The notes under the pieces are model-generated. The model did not search any database and was not told the origin of the DNA. It saw nothing but the letters and a program-made list of their open reading frames with translations. The translations under genes were made by a program, and so were the position numbers. A DNA stretch of 55,040 nucleotides from Longimicrobiales bacterium (GTDB lineage: Bacteria > Gemmatimonadota > Gemmatimonadetes > Longimicrobiales > Gaopeijiaceae), in contig JANQDZ010000028.1 of the NCBI GenBank assembly GCA_028278645.1, positions 1 through 55,040 of the forward strand, given 5' to 3'. This document shows positions 18,945 to 26,618 of the stretch, one piece after another (position 1 is the first letter of the stretch; each line of letters begins with the position of its first letter).

Positions 18945-20471
18945 TCAGCCCCCCATATCCACGATTTCCTCGTAGCTGGCAGGATCCCACTGAGGCTTTT
19001 CTGCCGCGTTGCCCAGTTCGAGTCCCAAGTGGAACATCAGCTTCGTCACGTTGGTGGCCTTGGTGATGTCCATCTTCTCTACTTCGTCATCCACCCCGTG
19101 GTAGTCCTCATGAATGCCGCAGAAGAAGAAAAGGACGGGAACCCCCCGACGGGCGAAGTTGAAGTGGTCCGATCTGCGGTAGAAATTCTGATCGGGCCAG
19201 ATGTCATCCGACGCGGTCAGGTTGAGCTCCGGGTGTTCGGCATTCACCCGGTTCAGCGTCTCACCCAGGTCCGAGTGCTCCTTCCCGATGACCACAATGG
19301 AATCGGGTGCGTTCCGAGAGATCATGTCGGCGTTGAGGTTCGCTACAAGCTCCCCGGGCGCCACGCCGGGGTTCTCGGCGTAGAACCGGCTACCCCATAG
19401 GCCGCTCTCCTCGCCACTCACCGCCAGGAACACCATCGAGCGCTTCGGACGCTCCGCCATCATTGAGAAGGCCTCCGCCAGTTCAACAACCGCGATGGTG
19501 CCGGAAGCATCGTCGTCGGCGCCGTTTCGAATGCTGTCACCGGCCTCATTCGGGGTGGTGGGCGCCACATGGTCCATGTGCCCGCTGTAGACGATGTACT
19601 CGTTCTTCAGGGTCGGGTCGCTCCCTTCCAGAATCGCCACAGTGTTCGGCATGTCGAACCCATCCAGCTCCTGAGTGGCCGTGTTAACGGTGAGTTCCAG
19701 GCTCGGGACATCCACCACCGCCACGGCGCCTCCACCCCGAGCCATGAGGGAGGAGAGTTGGATGCCATGGTCCGCCAAGACCGATCCCAGAACACCTTCC
19801 CGAATGCTCAACATGGCCGGCCCTCCTCCAGCCCCATCGTTCCAAGGCAGGAGCCTTTGGGTCCGGTTCCGAGAGCGGTCCACAGCCTCCGCCCACGCCT
19901 CGTCGCTACTTTGGTCAACCATGATCACCGAGGCCGGCTGGACGTTCGTCAGGCCCCTGGGGAAGCGGATCCGTCGTCGGCCCGACGTCTGAGCTGAAGC
20001 TGAGGGAACGATGACGAGGTGTTTACCGGAGAGTTGCTCAGGCGGGAGGTCCTGGGCGTCTGCGAGATTCCCCACAATGAGAGCGACTGGACCGGAAGCC
20101 CCACCTGCCGATGCTGTTATTGGGTAGACATCGGTCCCGAACTCCAGGCTCGGGCCCCCAGCGAACTCGGCTGAGGAACCTTCGAAGTCCATGGCCAGTT
20201 CCCGGACTTTATATGCCTGGATGAAGCTGCCGTCGTCCCCACCCGGCTCGAGCCCGTACTTCTCGAACTCCTCTGCGATCCATTCGGCCGTCATGGTCAA
20301 CCCGGGACTCGGATTGTATCGGCCCATCATGGAGTCGTGGGCAATGATTCCGACTTTGTGGAGAAAGTCCGCTTCGGTGATGGACGCAACCGCTTCGTCC
20401 GCGGGGACCCCGCGTTGGCACGCCAGGAGGCCGGGGGCGGCGAGGAAGGCCAGAAGTGCTAACCGTCTCAT
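18945..20471 (-). CDS. M28 family zinc peptidase, exported lipoprotein
   Basis: A 508-residue lipoprotein (lipobox LLAC after about 17 residues). Residues 100-280 are a PA-like insert and the C-terminal half is the M28 di-zinc aminopeptidase domain. Metal ligands are visible in order: YSGHMDHV, NGADDDASG, SGEESGLWGS, LNADM and RRSDHFNF. It should remove N-terminal residues from peptides in the periplasm. The ATG at 20471 has AGGA eight bases upstream; an upstream start at 20495 would only lengthen the signal. It follows the M14 gene on the same strand and could be co-transcribed with it. Confidence 0.9.
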   Translation of the reverse strand: MRRLALLAFLAAPGLLACQRGVPADEAVASITEADFLHKVGIIAHDSMMGRYNPSPGLTMTAEWIAEEFEKYGLEPGGDDGSFIQAYKVRELAMDFEGSSAEFAGGPSLEFGTDVYPITASAGGASGPVALIVGNLADAQDLPPEQLSGKHLVIVPSASAQTSGRRRIRFPRGLTNVQPASVIMVDQSSDEAWAEAVDRSRNRTQRLLPWNDGAGGGPAMLSIREGVLGSVLADHGIQLSSLMARGGGAVAVVDVPSLELTVNTATQELDGFDMPNTVAILEGSDPTLKNEYIVYSGHMDHVAPTTPNEAGDSIRNGADDDASGTIAVVELAEAFSMMAERPKRSMVFLAVSGEESGLWGSRFYAENPGVAPGELVANLNADMISRNAPDSIVVIGKEHSDLGETLNRVNAEHPELNLTASDDIWPDQNFYRRSDHFNFARRGVPVLFFFCGIHEDYHGVDDEVEKMDITKATNVTKLMFHLGLELGNAAEKPQWDPASYEEIVDMGG

Positions 20472-20523
20472 GATGAAGTCCTCGGTTTGGGGCAAAGCCC
20501 GGGAGCTCGGATCAACATTTTAT

Positions 20524-22173
20524 TTATCTAGCGGAACCAGGTTGGAAGGATAACCCGGGGCCCTTTTCGGGTACAGAACGCTGAATCGGATATGGCTCAC
20601 CGGCCCTGAGCGTTTCGTTGAGGAGACCCCAGGCAACCAGGCCATCGTCGGACCGCGGTTCCAACAGCCTGAACACGACCCTGGCAAGGGGTTGGTCCAT
20701 GGGCACCATGACCGTGCCATGAGCGAGGGCCGCCGGTTGAGGGGGACCATAATCTCCCCACACCTGCTGGGCCTGGTGGCCTTGATATTCCCTCTGGGAA
20801 GTCTGGACCGAATCGACCTGAAACTCCTCCACCTCCAACCCGGGCGGGGCCTCCTGGACCACCATGGTCGTTACTCCATGGGCCCGGAGGAGCTCGATGA
20901 CCCCGGTGAGGTCCGCAGGAACGAAATAGGCGGGGGGAACCTCCTCCACCTCTGTGGGCCGGAAGCTCCCGTACTCATACATCTCCGTGGGGGTCTGGGT
21001 GTCCGTTCTCAACAGCATCCGCTGCCCGGATACCGGGTTCTCTTCTTCGATGACGTCCCCCATGAGAATGGTCACCGGGGCGTCGGACCGTTCGGCTTCG
21101 AACTGAACGCCCATCGCCTCGCCGACGATTGATCTGGCATCCGCCCGTTCGGTCCGGGTCCGGATCTCCGTGGCGTTCTGGTGGCCGAACTCGATGATCT
21201 CACGGGTGAACCAGTAGGAGATTCCGATCCTCTCCTCGAACGATGCGTAGGAGTATGCCTCCCCGAGGATCCCAAACCGGTTTCGCAACCCGATGTAGTT
21301 GCTCACGTACCTGGGCTGGTGACTGAACGTATACCATCCGGCCTCTCGGTCTCCCCGGGCCGGCCTGGCCCCCCCGTAGTAGTACATGTCCCAGCCGGTG
21401 GCCTCTTTCACCGCTCGTGTGACTTCCGGCAGCCATTGGCCCCTCAGGTACCCGTCGATCTCTTCGGGAGTACCGGGCGGGAGCGGAGGTGCATAGGTCA
21501 GGTGATAGCCGTGACGGGAGCCGTTCGTCGTGTGGAGATCCACCGACAGGTGGGGATCGTAGGAGGAATAAAGTGCCACCAAAGCCCGGGATTCAGGGGC
21601 GTCGAGTTTCATCTGGTCACGGTTGAGGTCCAGTCCCATGGCATTCGGCCGCTGCCCCATGCCTTCAACCGGGCCGTGTTGCCCTCGCCGGTTCGTGGGG
21701 CTCACCCTCTCGTTTCCATCCGGGTTGTAGAGGGGTGCGATAAGCAGTACCAGGGAATCGGCCCACTGAGCGTGGCGGCCGGCGGCCAATTCCCTGAGGA
21801 GGATCAGGAGCGCTTCCTTCCCCGAGATCTCGCCCGCGTGAATACCGCCCTGGACATAAAGCCGGGTTTTCCCGGTACCTTTTACGGTTTCCGGGGAGGG
21901 GTCGTCCACGTCACCCACCACCACCAGGGGGATGGATCGTCCCTCCGATGAGGTTCCCATGCTCGTCAGATGGAGCCTCGAGGCCCCCTCCGTCACCTCG
22001 TCGAGGAACGCAACCAGATCGTCGTACCGGGTGGTCTGTCGATAGTCAGTCCTCTCCGCGGCCGTGAGCGGAGCTTGGGGTTCCTGGGCTTCGAGAGATG
22101 CGGGGGTGCCGAGCAGGAGAGACCAAGCCAACAAGCCGGGTATTCCCAGCCGGAGGGGCGCGGGAGTCGTCAT
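20524..22173 (-). CDS. M14 family zinc carboxypeptidase, exported
   Basis: A 549-residue protein with a signal peptide (LLAWSLLLGTPASLEAQ) and an M14 zinc carboxypeptidase domain in residues 40-330. The zinc motif is HAGE in GGIHAGEISGKEA, followed by NPDGNER, the DLNRDQMKLDAPES substrate region and the third ligand in SVDLHTTNGS. A C-terminal domain of about 200 residues of unknown type follows. I chose ATG 22173 because GAGGTG precedes it and the signal peptide starts there; the much longer upstream frame lies inside the anti-sigma gene. With the M28 enzyme it forms an exported peptide-degrading pair behind a sigma/anti-sigma module. Confidence 0.88.
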   Translation of the reverse strand: MTTPAPLRLGIPGLLAWSLLLGTPASLEAQEPQAPLTAAERTDYRQTTRYDDLVAFLDEVTEGASRLHLTSMGTSSEGRSIPLVVVGDVDDPSPETVKGTGKTRLYVQGGIHAGEISGKEALLILLRELAAGRHAQWADSLVLLIAPLYNPDGNERVSPTNRRGQHGPVEGMGQRPNAMGLDLNRDQMKLDAPESRALVALYSSYDPHLSVDLHTTNGSRHGYHLTYAPPLPPGTPEEIDGYLRGQWLPEVTRAVKEATGWDMYYYGGARPARGDREAGWYTFSHQPRYVSNYIGLRNRFGILGEAYSYASFEERIGISYWFTREIIEFGHQNATEIRTRTERADARSIVGEAMGVQFEAERSDAPVTILMGDVIEEENPVSGQRMLLRTDTQTPTEMYEYGSFRPTEVEEVPPAYFVPADLTGVIELLRAHGVTTMVVQEAPPGLEVEEFQVDSVQTSQREYQGHQAQQVWGDYGPPQPAALAHGTVMVPMDQPLARVVFRLLEPRSDDGLVAWGLLNETLRAGEPYPIQRSVPEKGPGLSFQPGSAR

Positions 22174-22337
22174 GATCCACCTCATATAACCGTTTGTCAC
22201 TGACCGTGGATAGGGTTGTTCCCCGGTATCCACCGCGTCGGAGCGGGAGCCAAGGTATCCCCTACTCCGAGGGGGTGTCCACTCGGTGCGGAGGAGGGTT
22301 GGCCGGCCGGGGATCCAATCGGGGATTCCGCCGGGCC

Positions 22338-23672
22338 TCAGCGGATCATCTTCAGGAGGGCTTTCAACTGGTCCTCGTCGGTGGGACCCCTGGCCACCAG
22401 GAGCCCTCTCTCCCGCTCCATGACGACCTGGTTCCATCCTTTGGGCAGGGAGGCCTCCAAAACGTTGGCGTAGGCTCGCCTGCCGGGCATCTCGTCCACC
22501 GGGTCTTCGGCACGGGCGTAGCGGAGCTGCATGTCCGTCCCCATGAGGAGACCGAGATAGTGGAGCTCGAGGGTGTCCCCGGGCGAAAGTAGTTGTCGAA
22601 TTACAAGGGCTCTCTCCCCCGGCACCCGCTCCTCCCATTCCACGGAGGCAACCTCCAGCACAGGCACGGCCAGGCCCGGCACCCCCAACAAAGCCTTGAC
22701 CGAGTCGGAGACCCGGGAGCTCGTTGGCACAGCTTCCGCCCCCGCCGCCATCATGAAGTCCGAGACAGCTCTGGGGGAGGCCGCCCGAGCACCGATGGAG
22801 TCGGCTATGGGCAGCGCCGTTACCACTAGCTCTTCCAGGGCGAGAGCCTCCGACCGGAAGCCGGCGACGGTCGCCGAGTCTACCCTCTCGGCGGCCACGG
22901 TCGTGTCCCCGGGACGCTGGGCACCGGTGGAGTCCGGCTGGAGGACGGCCCGCCGTTCGGCCTCACCGGTTGCCGCCCCCGGTACAGCTTCAAACTCGGG
23001 AACCTGTGGTTGGGCCACCGCAGGAGCCTCCCGCTGTCGGCTGGCGGTGACGACGACGTCTTCGCGAACGACCGAATCCGGGGTCGCCTGACGGATCGGG
23101 TCGCGACCGAGCTCTTCGGCTGGCTCCTCATCCGTCTGCCGGCGACCGGTGACCACCAGGGCTTCATACTGAAGAGAATCGGAGCCGAGGGTCGTAAGGA
23201 GGTCTGCTTCCTGATCCTCGATGATCCCTTCCTGGACCGGGGCGACCTCCAGGCGATCCAGCGCACCGGTAGGCCGTCCGTCCATGGGAATGGTCTGCCA
23301 AACCTGGCCACCCATCCACCCCACTCCCAACGCAAGGACGATGGTGGCGGCCCAGGCCATGGGGAGCCCGCGGAGAGGGCCGCGGTATTGAGTCTTCCGG
23401 GCGGCTACCTCTTCCACAGCGCCGGCCTCCGGGCTGGGCGCTTCGGCTCTCTCCCGAAGCTCCTCGAAAGTCGGCAGGCCCACCTGGGAAAGATCGGGCG
23501 TTCCCAGAATCTCCGACGCCCTCAACCGGACAGATTCCTCGTCCTGGAGCCGTTCCCTACACGCCGGACAATCGGCGAGGTGGTCCCGAACCTCATCCCC
23601 ACGACCCTCTGGTAGCAAATCGAGGGCGCCGTCCAGGAAGGCGTGGAGTTCCCCGTCAGTTACGTGCCGCAT
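22338..23672 (-). CDS. Zinc-finger anti-sigma factor with three TonB-box-like motifs
   Basis: A 444-residue membrane protein. The N-terminal zinc-finger anti-sigma domain has the ligands in HLADCPAC (His31, Cys35, Cys38). A single membrane helix lies at about 105-126, and a long periplasmic part of over 300 residues follows. This is far longer than usual. It holds three copies of the pattern E-x-[LV]-V-V-T-[GA]: EALVVTG (170-176), EDVVVTA (204-210) and EELVVTA (280-286). These match TonB boxes of outer-membrane receptors (E. coli BtuB DTLVVTA, Cir ETMVVTA). The disordered, Ala/Pro/Glu-rich sequence around them would leave the boxes accessible. Residues 360-444 form a small folded-looking domain. 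ATG 23672 overlaps the sigma gene by 17 bases, so the pair is coupled. Confidence 0.85.
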   Translation of the reverse strand: MRHVTDGELHAFLDGALDLLPEGRGDEVRDHLADCPACRERLQDEESVRLRASEILGTPDLSQVGLPTFEELRERAEAPSPEAGAVEEVAARKTQYRGPLRGLPMAWAATIVLALGVGWMGGQVWQTIPMDGRPTGALDRLEVAPVQEGIIEDQEADLLTTLGSDSLQYEALVVTGRRQTDEEPAEELGRDPIRQATPDSVVREDVVVTASRQREAPAVAQPQVPEFEAVPGAATGEAERRAVLQPDSTGAQRPGDTTVAAERVDSATVAGFRSEALALEELVVTALPIADSIGARAASPRAVSDFMMAAGAEAVPTSSRVSDSVKALLGVPGLAVPVLEVASVEWEERVPGERALVIRQLLSPGDTLELHYLGLLMGTDMQLRYARAEDPVDEMPGRRAYANVLEASLPKGWNQVVMERERGLLVARGPTDEDQLKALLKMIR

Positions 23673-24162
23673 GATCCTTCTCCATCTCCTGGTGGGCCTC
23701 CACAAGCCTCTGCCTGGCCCTGGCCAGGGTGGTGCCAATCGCGCCGGGGGAGAGGTCCGTCACATCCGCGATCTCCCGGTAGCTCAAACCTGCATCCCAT
23801 AACAGGAGCACCTCCCTGTCCCTTTCCTTCAACCCGTCCAACGCTGCCCGAACCTGGGCCCACTCTTCTTTAGCCAGAACAGCCTCGTCTGGCCTCGGGC
23901 TCCCCTCGACCTCCTCCGCCTCGCTTCGTAACAAAGCCAGATGTCGTTTCCGGCGCAGGACGGTCCTCGCCTCGTCTCTGGCCAGGTTGGTTGCAACCTT
24001 AAAAAGCCAGGCCCTGGGGTTTTCAGGATCATGGCGGAGGGCTCTTACAAAAACCTCCTGGGCCAAATCCCTGGCCCGTTCCATGTCCCACACCTTTCGG
24101 TGGAGGAACCGTACCAACTCCTCGAAGCTGGTTCGGTAGACCTCACCCCAATCCACTTTCAC
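23656..24162 (-). CDS. RNA polymerase ECF sigma factor
   Basis: A 168-residue compact ECF sigma factor. Region 2 is at about 8-75 (FEELVRFLHRKVWDMERARDLAQEVFVRALRH, then PRAWLFKVATNLARDE). Region 4 is at about 110-160 (LKERDREVLLLWDAGLSYREIADV, then GAIGTTLARARQRL). It overlaps its anti-sigma gene and precedes the M14 and M28 peptidase genes, which may belong to the same transcript or regulon. Given the TonB boxes in the partner, it may answer to TonB-dependent uptake. Confidence 0.92.
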   Translation of the reverse strand: MKVDWGEVYRTSFEELVRFLHRKVWDMERARDLAQEVFVRALRHDPENPRAWLFKVATNLARDEARTVLRRKRHLALLRSEAEEVEGSPRPDEAVLAKEEWAQVRAALDGLKERDREVLLLWDAGLSYREIADVTDLSPGAIGTTLARARQRLVEAHQEMEKDHAARN

Positions 24163-24404: not shown

Positions 24405-25286
24405 TCATCCGCCCCGTCTCAGAATGAAGACCTTCCCCCCGAAGGTTTCAACTTCAATTTGGGCTGAACCGGTCCCCAGCTCGAAGGTCAGCTCCTTCTG
24501 GTTCAGACCTGGGATCCCACCTTCCTCCGTCGCCTCGGTGGGGGCCCCCGGGAAGTCCACCTCGATGTCCCCGGCCAACGTCATGACCTCCACTTCGGCG
24601 TTGATGTTGGTCGGGAGGTACAACCGGATCTCCCCTGCATGACTGCCGAAGCTGTAGCTCCCACCGTCCAGGATGTCGCCGTCGAACCTCAGAGATCCCC
24701 CCACCGTTCCGATCTCTACGTCGGAAGAGGTGATCCCCTCCAGGGTGAGGGTGGCGCCAACGCTCTCAGCGTAGATGTCACCCGCGCAATTCCGGATGGT
24801 CACGGCTCCCGCCACCCCTCCGACTTCCAGATCGCCCTGAGCACCCTCGACATCGATGGTTCCGTTCACCGAACCAAGGACAATCGATCCACGGCCTCCC
24901 GCAACACGGATGGGCCCGTTCACGTTCCCTACTTCCACTTCACCCCCAGCACCCTGAATGTCCACGTCCAGGGCCACGCCCTCCACCGACAGGTCGAAGT
25001 TCCGCGGCATGGTGATCGAGAAGTCGATGGAGAAGTCGAAGTCCTTTCCCTTTTCCAGGTCGGGGTTGACAGAGATGGTGCTACCGGAGCGCTCCACCTC
25101 CACCGAAATGTCGCCGGAGTGCTCGGCCCGGATCTGAACCGCGTCGCGATCCCAGGTCCTGACCACGACCTCACCCTGGATATTCTCGACCTCCAGCCGG
25201 GTTGCCCCCGATGCTTGGACGATCGTGTCCGTGGGTTGGATCAAAACCGCAGCACTCAAAGCGCCAACTACGATTCCGGTGAGCAT
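24405..25286 (-). CDS. DUF4097 beta-helix-like exported protein
   Basis: A 293-residue protein with a short signal-like N-terminus and a DUF4097 domain built of about ten repeated beta strands of the type G-x-hydrophobic-x-V (VEVGNVNGPIRVAGG, IVLGSVNGTIDVEGA, LEVGGVAGAVTIRN). Such repeats usually fold as a right-handed beta-helix. No activity is established; the genes are often last in sigma/anti-sigma operons, as here. GAGGAAG precedes the ATG. A terminator follows 45 bases after the stop. Confidence 0.85.
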   Translation of the reverse strand: MLTGIVVGALSAAVLIQPTDTIVQASGATRLEVENIQGEVVVRTWDRDAVQIRAEHSGDISVEVERSGSTISVNPDLEKGKDFDFSIDFSITMPRNFDLSVEGVALDVDIQGAGGEVEVGNVNGPIRVAGGRGSIVLGSVNGTIDVEGAQGDLEVGGVAGAVTIRNCAGDIYAESVGATLTLEGITSSDVEIGTVGGSLRFDGDILDGGSYSFGSHAGEIRLYLPTNINAEVEVMTLAGDIEVDFPGAPTEATEEGGIPGLNQKELTFELGTGSAQIEVETFGGKVFILRRGG

Positions 25287-25304
25287 GGTCTTCCTCTATT
25301 GTCC

Positions 25305-25967
25305 TCAGGTTTTGGCGTAAACCGCCATAGCTGCGGTGCGCAGCAGTTCCATTTTCTTCCGAAGGTTGTCGGCCAGGAACCGTTGGAGCATTGGGCTCGC
25401 AGGGTCCTGCCTCACCGCGTCGCCAGCTTCTTCGATGGCCTGGTCGATGGTACCCAGGCTCTCCTCGAGGACCCTCACGGTTTCCGGATCCAGGACCTCC
25501 CGACCGGTTTCCAGAACGGTTTCGAGGTCGGCGACGGCCTCATCGTAGCCACCGTAAGCCTCCTCCCATCCCACAAATTGAGCCGGGGTCCGGACTCCGG
25601 AATCGCCGACGCTCGCCGGACCGGGGGAGCCGGATAGGAACGTCCACACGATTCCCCCGGAGATCACCATGAGGGCGATGCTAGCCGCCAGGAGTTGCCA
25701 AGCCGGCAGGCTGACGCGATGCCGGGCACGCTTCTCCACCGCTCCGGAGTTCTCAATCCGCCAAGCGATCTGAGGCCAGAGGTCCCGGGAAGGAGTCGCT
25801 TCCACCGGGAGGGATCCAAGATCTTCGGCGAGCTTGGAGAGACGAGCCAGCTCCCCACGACATACCTGACACCCTTCCAGGTGGCCCCTGACTCGCTCCT
25901 CCTCCTCCCGGTCCAGAAGACCTTCCCGGAAGTCATTGAGTGCGCCGTCTTCGACATGCCGTGTCAT
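25305..25967 (-). CDS. Zinc-finger anti-sigma factor
   Basis: A 220-residue membrane anti-sigma factor. The N-terminal zinc finger has its ligands in GHLEGCQVC (residues 28-36). One membrane helix lies near 88-112 (WQLLAASIALMVISGGIVWTF). The periplasmic part (residues 115-220) is a helical hairpin rich in Glu and Leu (ADLETVLETGREVLDPETVRVLEESLG), resembling coiled-coil sensor domains. It overlaps its sigma factor by four bases (ATGA) and is followed after 18 bases by the DUF4097 gene. Confidence 0.88.
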   Translation of the reverse strand: MTRHVEDGALNDFREGLLDREEEERVRGHLEGCQVCRGELARLSKLAEDLGSLPVEATPSRDLWPQIAWRIENSGAVEKRARHRVSLPAWQLLAASIALMVISGGIVWTFLSGSPGPASVGDSGVRTPAQFVGWEEAYGGYDEAVADLETVLETGREVLDPETVRVLEESLGTIDQAIEEAGDAVRQDPASPMLQRFLADNLRKKMELLRTAAMAVYAKT

Positions 25968-26536
25968 GAGTCCAGCTTCTCCCTCATCATCTTTCGAGCC
26001 CTGTGGATCTGTGCCTTCACCGTCCCGAGAGCCACCCCCTGCATTTCGGCGATCTCGTCGTACTTGTACCCGTAGATATCTCGGAGAACCACCACCCTAC
26101 GGGCACCTTCAGGGAGGCTGGCGATGGCTCGCTCGATATCCAGCCTCGTTCCGGGAAACTCGGTTTTTACTCTCCCGAGGTACTCGCCCGGATCCTCCAC
26201 CAGCTCCTCACGGGATTCCCTTCGACCTCTTGTCCGTCCCGCTTGGAGCACCACGTTCACCGCGAGCCGGTGGAGCCACGTCGTGAACTTGCTTTCTCCC
26301 CGGAAGCTTCCGAGCCGCTCCCAAGCTCTGACGAAGACATCCTGCGTCAGCTCTTCAGCCCGCTGTGCGTCCCGGGCCATCCTAAGGCAGAGCGCGTAAA
26401 CCCGCCCCACCAACCTCCGGTAAAGGGCTTCGAAAGCTCTCGAATCCCCGGATTGGGCTCGCTCCACCAGAGCCCCGGTGGTCAACCCACTCCACACATC
26501 CGCCGATTCCCCGCTGACCAGCGGGACCGCGCCCAT
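25964..26536 (-). CDS. RNA polymerase ECF sigma factor
   Basis: A 190-residue ECF sigma factor. Region 2 reads FEALYRRLVGRVYALCLRM, AEELTQDVFVRAWERL and FTTWLHRLAVNV; region 4 reads LPEGARRVVVLRDIYGYKYDEIAEMQ and LGTVKAQIHRARKMM. The ATG at 26536 has GGAG five bases upstream; a TTG at 26572 would add twelve residues. It starts the operon sigma/anti-sigma/DUF4097, which ends at the hairpin at 24326-24360. Confidence 0.92.
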   Translation of the reverse strand: MGAVPLVSGESADVWSGLTTGALVERAQSGDSRAFEALYRRLVGRVYALCLRMARDAQRAEELTQDVFVRAWERLGSFRGESKFTTWLHRLAVNVVLQAGRTRGRRESREELVEDPGEYLGRVKTEFPGTRLDIERAIASLPEGARRVVVLRDIYGYKYDEIAEMQGVALGTVKAQIHRARKMMREKLDS

Positions 26537-26618
26537 TCCTTCTCCGGAAGAGTGTTCCTTCTTCTTCACCAACTTTGATCCCGGGAAAAGTGGGTTTGTT
26601 TACACTGAGTCGGATTCG

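Follow-up and report, generated by a model that had tools for sequence, protein, structure and literature searches.

The window, a stretch of 55,040 nucleotides from a Longimicrobiales bacterium, encodes a membrane-bound anti-sigma factor whose disordered periplasmic linker bears three motifs that match the TonB boxes of outer-membrane receptors. Such boxes recur in the family far more often than expected by chance, and in a number of relatives they belong to a module that is homologous to the N-termini of TonB-dependent receptors. We think it a little short of an even chance that the box-bearing anti-sigma factor would bind TonB as a client in competition with the receptors, and that TonB occupancy could tune the release of the sigma factor.

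An ECF sigma and anti-sigma factor pair

The anti-sigma factor has 444 amino acids (22338..23672, (-) strand), and comprises a zf-HC2/ASD domain, a transmembrane (TM) helix, a disordered linker with the three TonB-box motifs and a folded C-terminal domain. Its start overlaps the end of a gene for an ECF sigma factor (23656..24162, (-); Pfam Sigma70_r2 1.8e-8 and Sigma70_r4_2 1.6e-12), and an ECF sigma gene adjoins that of the anti-sigma factor in the relatives examined.

The zinc-finger anti-sigma domain is cytoplasmic and occupies residues 1-90 (23403..23672, (-)), with pLDDT mostly >80. The HxxxCxxC zinc finger matches Pfam zf-HC2 with E = 1.6e-4 and 22.1 bits, 0.1 bit short of the gathering score of 22.2, and His31, Cys35 and Cys38 are invariant across 50 aligned relatives. 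AlphaFold2 predicts the TM helix at residues 103-127 (23292..23366, (-)), where there is a conserved WAA(S/T) segment. A sequence-only reading of this DNA had placed a zinc finger and a membrane helix ahead of the tail, and both are borne out. It had also called the tail unusually long. Complete relatives span 250 to 554 amino acids, and by that measure the tail is unremarkable. The linker (residues ~133-302) holds all three boxes and is disordered in the AlphaFold2 model as had been proposed, with pLDDT mostly <50.

The periplasmic C-terminal domain (residues 330-444; 22341..22685, (-)) is folded in the AlphaFold2 model. Comparison by VIA-align gave Z = 9.4 against 2v43_C 219-313, with an rmsd of 2.9 over 87 residues, and the next rows scored 7.0 and 5.0. 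The predicted fold resembles that of the C-terminal domain of RseB. This is a resemblance of fold to which sequence lends no support, the domain being without a sequence match to solved structures (PDB) or to Pfam. By the tested features the window protein is a membrane-bound zinc-finger (ASDI, zf-HC2) anti-sigma factor of an ECF pair. Assignment as a FecR-type anti-sigma factor was considered and rejected, as Pfam gives no FecR-family match up to E 0.1.

Downstream of the pair lies the gene for a secreted M14 zinc carboxypeptidase (20524..22185, (-); Pfam Peptidase_M14 2.5e-18), syntenic in close relatives, and beyond it a gene that by its sequence encodes an M28-type peptidase (18945..20495, (-)), for which tblastn shows synteny in many family members. 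The order of anti-sigma/sigma pair, M14 peptidase and M28-type gene is kept in close relatives. Directly upstream of the pair (24405-26572, (-)) are a second ECF sigma gene (25964-26572), a zf-HC2 anti-sigma gene (25305-25967) and a gene for a DUF4097 protein. The 55 kb window contains no VWA, CpD or Plug open reading frame, and no gene for a TonB-dependent receptor or transducer lies beside the pair.

The three TonB-box motifs

The motifs are EALVVTG (motif 1, residues 170-176; 23145..23165), EDVVVTA (motif 2, residues 204-210; 23043..23063) and EELVVTA (motif 3, residues 280-286; 22815..22835), all read from the (-) strand. Each lies in the translated frame exactly where the sequence-only reading had put it. 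They were scored with a matrix trained on 23 boxes, all drawn from TonB-dependent receptors and plug proteins that the host encodes; the training boxes have a median of 15.7 bits. Since the matrix comes from the same phylum it scores likeness to local TonB boxes, as wanted, and reversed sequence provides the control for composition. Motif 3 scores 18.8 bits, motif 1 11.7 bits and motif 2 6.2 bits. The proposed match to receptor boxes holds. Host receptors have boxes of like sequence (LDEVVVTG, LEGIVVTG and MEELVVSA), and the experimentally tested TonB box of Bt1763 is DEVVVTG (PMC7782687).

Three stretches of the anti-sigma tail fit the stringent pattern [DE]x[LIVM]V[VI]T[AG]. On shuffling the tail 200,000 times one such motif was obtained in 423 cases, and two in 0. 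The codons of the three copies differ (GTGGTCACC, GTCGTCACC and GTGGTAACG), so the boxes do not stem from a fresh duplication of DNA. The window protein has its three boxes with neither a PF13715 domain nor a remnant of CpD.

Boxes in orthologues and across the family

The TonB reading had been made to depend on conservation of the three motifs in orthologues, and they are not so conserved. One box remains in the orthologue of genome G001 (64% identical), with MEALVVTSS at the site of box 2, where EDVVVTA aligns with its EALVVTS; box 3 is degraded and the segment containing box 1 is absent. The G002 and related G110 orthologues have no boxes. Within a single tblastn comparison of G001 with the window the sigma factor is 92% identical and the anti-sigma factor 58%, and therefore the linker drifts fast. 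A profile of the four close orthologues found no new orthologues in the genome contigs; the loci L139, L140 and L141 (from Gemmatimonadetes/Gemmatimonadota MAGs) repeat the anti-sigma factors of L002, L003 and L111.

We surveyed 95 members of the family, taken from the order and class. Boxes of at least 14 bits are present in 16 of the 95 where 0.16 are expected from shuffles (approximately 100-fold), and boxes of at least 12 bits in 19 where 0.69 are expected. Reversed sequences gave 0 at both thresholds. In 384,000 residues of other open reading frames, outside the family and known receptor loci, there are only 7 such matches, all beside family members. These counts bear on the possibility that the boxes are chance matches in a linker rich in Val, Thr, Ala and Glu. 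The biased composition of the linker and its fast drift would favor this, but the failure of any of the 200,000 shuffled tails to give two motifs, together with the excess of boxes in the family, makes it extremely improbable. On the evidence of the shuffled and reversed sequences we reject chance as the origin of the boxes.

Box state changed at least 11 times on a tree of the family from which the linker was left out. Placement varies too, the box being located in the linker in L001, L006 and L112, and in a loop of the C-terminal domain in L020, L181, L188 and L189. The majority of relatives are without any box, including nearly all of genus g6, and therefore the box is not essential to this sigma system. 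In a sister clade having CpD domains the box is kept in 8 of 9 members. These nine species lie on long branches, and their box columns are 65% identical in pairwise comparison, against 39% for the preceding CpD domain and 20% for the next 30 columns. The suggestion that boxes would be kept while their flanks drift is thus upheld for the sister clade, but not for the orthologues of the window protein.

Receptor modules in related anti-sigma factors

In L110, L113, L114, L115, L119, L120, L121 and L022 a CarboxypepD_reg domain (CpD) scoring above the Pfam cut-off immediately precedes the box. In L009 a degenerate box accompanies CarboxypepD_reg and Plug domains (Plug 40.5 bits, cut-off 23.9), and the box region and Plug are decaying in L009/L082. 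L017 lacks a box but contains a TonB_C domain (56.1 bits, cut-off 24.6). A profile of the anti-sigma module recovers the TonB-dependent receptors of the host, with E down to 6e-24, and also thousand-residue receptor frames across the class. The module found in the relatives is clearly homologous to receptor N-termini. Resolution is poor in the tree of anti-sigma CpD-box modules and host receptors, which leaves it uncertain how many times the module was captured.

In SusC transporters the same domain, known there as the NTE (PF13715), precedes the TonB box, which in Bt1763 reads DEVVVTG and is flexible (PMC7782687). Deletion or replacement of the TonB box of a SusC transporter cripples growth on levan, while the function of the NTE is unknown (PMC7782687). 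The relatives have the same order of CpD and box with the same spacing, and a box that is disordered. The model of the L110 CpD superimposes on the solved NTE of BT3090 with Z = 12.5 and an rmsd of 1.8 over 80 residues. The box is disordered and free in the models of P0001 and L110, with pLDDT <50 for that of L110, much like the Ton box behind the NTE of Bt1763 (PMC7782687). In SusC-type transporters the module leads into the plug and barrel at the outer membrane, whereas that of the relatives is part of an inner-membrane anti-sigma factor, and the window protein differs further in having boxes without CpD. The presence of an NTE domain outside transporters, ahead of a box or box-like segment, touches on the question of what this domain does.

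Boxes on neighboring VWA proteins

Six loci of the CpD clade were examined, and at each of them the pair has a divergently oriented YfbK-type VWA gene whose product contains CpD and, after it, a box or a segment resembling one. The CpD-box module of the anti-sigma factor is 44% identical to that of its own YfbK-type neighbor compared with 34% for unpaired modules, and the true pairing is the best among 720 permutations. In G038 the box has been lost from both the anti-sigma factor and its YfbK-type neighbor. Other relatives have a gene upstream of the pair that we name VIT-VWA from its sequence, and at G173, G209, G269 and G272 a box lies close to the C-terminus of the VIT-VWA protein, without CpD. 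Counting boxes of 10 bits or more, anti-sigma factor and neighbor tend to have them together (9/15 against 1/26, Fisher 1e-4), although with so few independent pairs shared descent could also explain this. In G215 (L154/L171, G215:C1) a zinc finger, TM helix, CarboxypepD_reg, box and full YfbK-type VWA are fused in one chain of 868 amino acids. At L170 (G252:C2) the anti-sigma factor has CpD and box, and a YfbK-like protein is encoded alongside in an open reading frame of its own. The host has its own YfbK gene elsewhere (C94), with CpD and MDAIMVTASR.

Several of the YfbK-type and VIT-VWA proteins beside ECF pairs therefore bear the same box or CpD-box module as the anti-sigma factors, but they are soluble or secreted VWA proteins rather than anti-sigma factors. 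The box-bearing neighbors of L022, L107 and L115 were considered as candidate receptors. This was rejected, their sequences being those of YfbK-type VWA proteins.

TonB machinery of the host

The host does encode TonB, as had been required, and TonB_C, ExbD and receptors were all found. Its genome gives 10 matches to TonB_C (three of them within one M56-like protein), 39 to Plug and 4 to ExbD, 3 of the latter being above the cut-off. Two ExbD genes lie beside one TonB_C at C26:33214-34738. The site-2 protease family (M50) has 2 matches.

A number of other host proteins carry parts of this machinery. At L134 (G000:C50, 3629-5030) an ECF-type sigma gene is followed by one for a protein with a single TM helix, a TonB_C domain and the box-like sequence ETEVVVSAAD. 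This locus lies between gapA and pgk/tpiA/secG, and homologues are found across the family. It is possible that the L134 protein is a sigma regulator that itself reads TonB boxes. Three M56 (BlaR1-like) peptidase-like membrane proteins, L031 (G000:C74), L037 (G000:C18) and L061 (G000:C85), have as additions, in the order listed, three TonB_C domains, TonB_C plus CarboxypepD_reg, and a Plug match. L051, L053, L054 and L058 of the host are small lipoprotein-like proteins that are hardly more than a Plug domain.

What might read the boxes?

If the anti-sigma factor is a client of TonB, the long disordered periplasmic linker would display the boxes, and the C-terminal domain of TonB, or another TonB_C protein of the host, would dock on them as on those of receptors. 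Active outer-membrane receptors would compete with the anti-sigma factor for TonB. Either a shift in how much TonB is occupied or tension exerted through TonB-ExbB-ExbD could then alter the exposure of the linker and RseB-like end domain to a site-1 protease, after which a site-2 protease would liberate the sigma factor. We infer the binding of TonB, the sign of its effect and the protease steps. In the Fox system contact with the receptor shields the anti-sigma factor from proteolysis (PMC11637429), and because of this the effect of TonB could have either sign, protection or trigger.

The statistics of the boxes, their recurrence, the receptor modules of the relatives, the free disordered box, and the TonB, ExbD and M50 of the host count in favor of a TonB client. 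Against it, the boxes of the window protein are poorly kept within the genus, most relatives are boxless, the window encodes no receptor, and boxes are also found on the neighboring VWA proteins. Because of the last point the motif is no proof of a link to TonB, and release of the sigma factor by TonB contact is one among several readings. Moreover the geometry of pulling is not obvious, because TonB and the anti-sigma factor both sit in the inner membrane. The sequence-only proposal that the anti-sigma factor itself may bind TonB thus keeps the support of box likeness, disorder, host TonB and receptor modules in relatives, but loses that of conservation of the three boxes in orthologues.

Alternatively the boxes could be ligands of another domain, such as the RseB-like end domain of the same protein, the CpD or VWA of a partner, or the TonB_C of another ECF regulator. 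In that case a VWA partner would compete for the site through its own matching box and open the anti-sigma factor to proteolysis, and TonB need not act. The TonB box of FpvA is bound by its signaling domain as well as by TonB (PMC9249621), and because TonB is thus not the only possible binder of a box we retain this explanation while judging it unlikely. It would account for the higher identity of paired anti-sigma and YfbK-type modules and the joint loss of the box in G038. The boxes without CpD on upstream VIT-VWA neighbors, the co-occurrence of boxes in anti-sigma factors and neighbors, the single chain of G215 and the resemblance of the end domain to that of RseB point the same way. Yet phylogenetically independent pairs are so few that shared ancestry or gene conversion may be the cause, the box is undocked on the end domain in both AlphaFold2 models (P0001 and L110), and the window locus has no VWA neighbor. 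Nor does it explain a motif identical to that of receptors where CpD is absent. The boxes might also be remnants, receptor-type CpD-box modules having been captured several times and now decaying, with the tail merely a spacer. The clear homology to receptor modules is in keeping with this, as are the decay in L009/L082 and the lack of boxes in G002, G110 and most relatives. We nevertheless consider it improbable. No CpD remnant accompanies the three boxes of the window protein, solitary boxes are found at different positions in several lineages, and the CpD clade keeps its box better than its CpD domain, which is the opposite of decay.

Comparison with known systems

Like FecR, FpvR, FoxR and PupR of cell-surface signaling, a TonB client of this kind would be an ECF-linked single-pass anti-sigma factor that connects to the TonB system through its periplasmic part, and proteolytic release is the likely route in both. 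FoxR-type proteins have a beta-solenoid and, for contact with the receptor, an STN-like end domain (PMC11637429). The window protein differs in having no FecR match, an end domain that is RseB-like in its predicted fold, and TonB boxes on the anti-sigma factor itself. With the RseA/RseB (MucA/MucB) system of sigma-E it shares a disordered periplasmic region of the anti-sigma factor. The end domain of the window protein, whose predicted fold resembles the C-terminal domain of RseB, would be an RseB-like domain in cis. We know of no TonB box in RseA/RseB (MucA/MucB). Our search of the literature, conducted largely outside subscription journals, found no report of an anti-sigma factor with TonB boxes, NTE or Plug.

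The boxes, receptor modules, plug, TonB_C and matched boxes of the neighbors are concrete constructs that can be tested. More broadly, the TonB box of Gemmatimonadota might be a portable tag on envelope proteins that are not transporters, the ECF anti-sigma factors and their VWA partners, read by TonB and by TonB_C-bearing ECF regulators so that gene expression would follow TonB occupancy. This is possible, if on balance doubtful. If true, it would amount to a TonB-wired signaling network lacking a signaling receptor. TonB is common to many receptors, yet to our knowledge, and in the literature searched, no protein gauges how busy TonB is. An anti-sigma factor that itself bears TonB boxes would serve as a sensor of TonB load.
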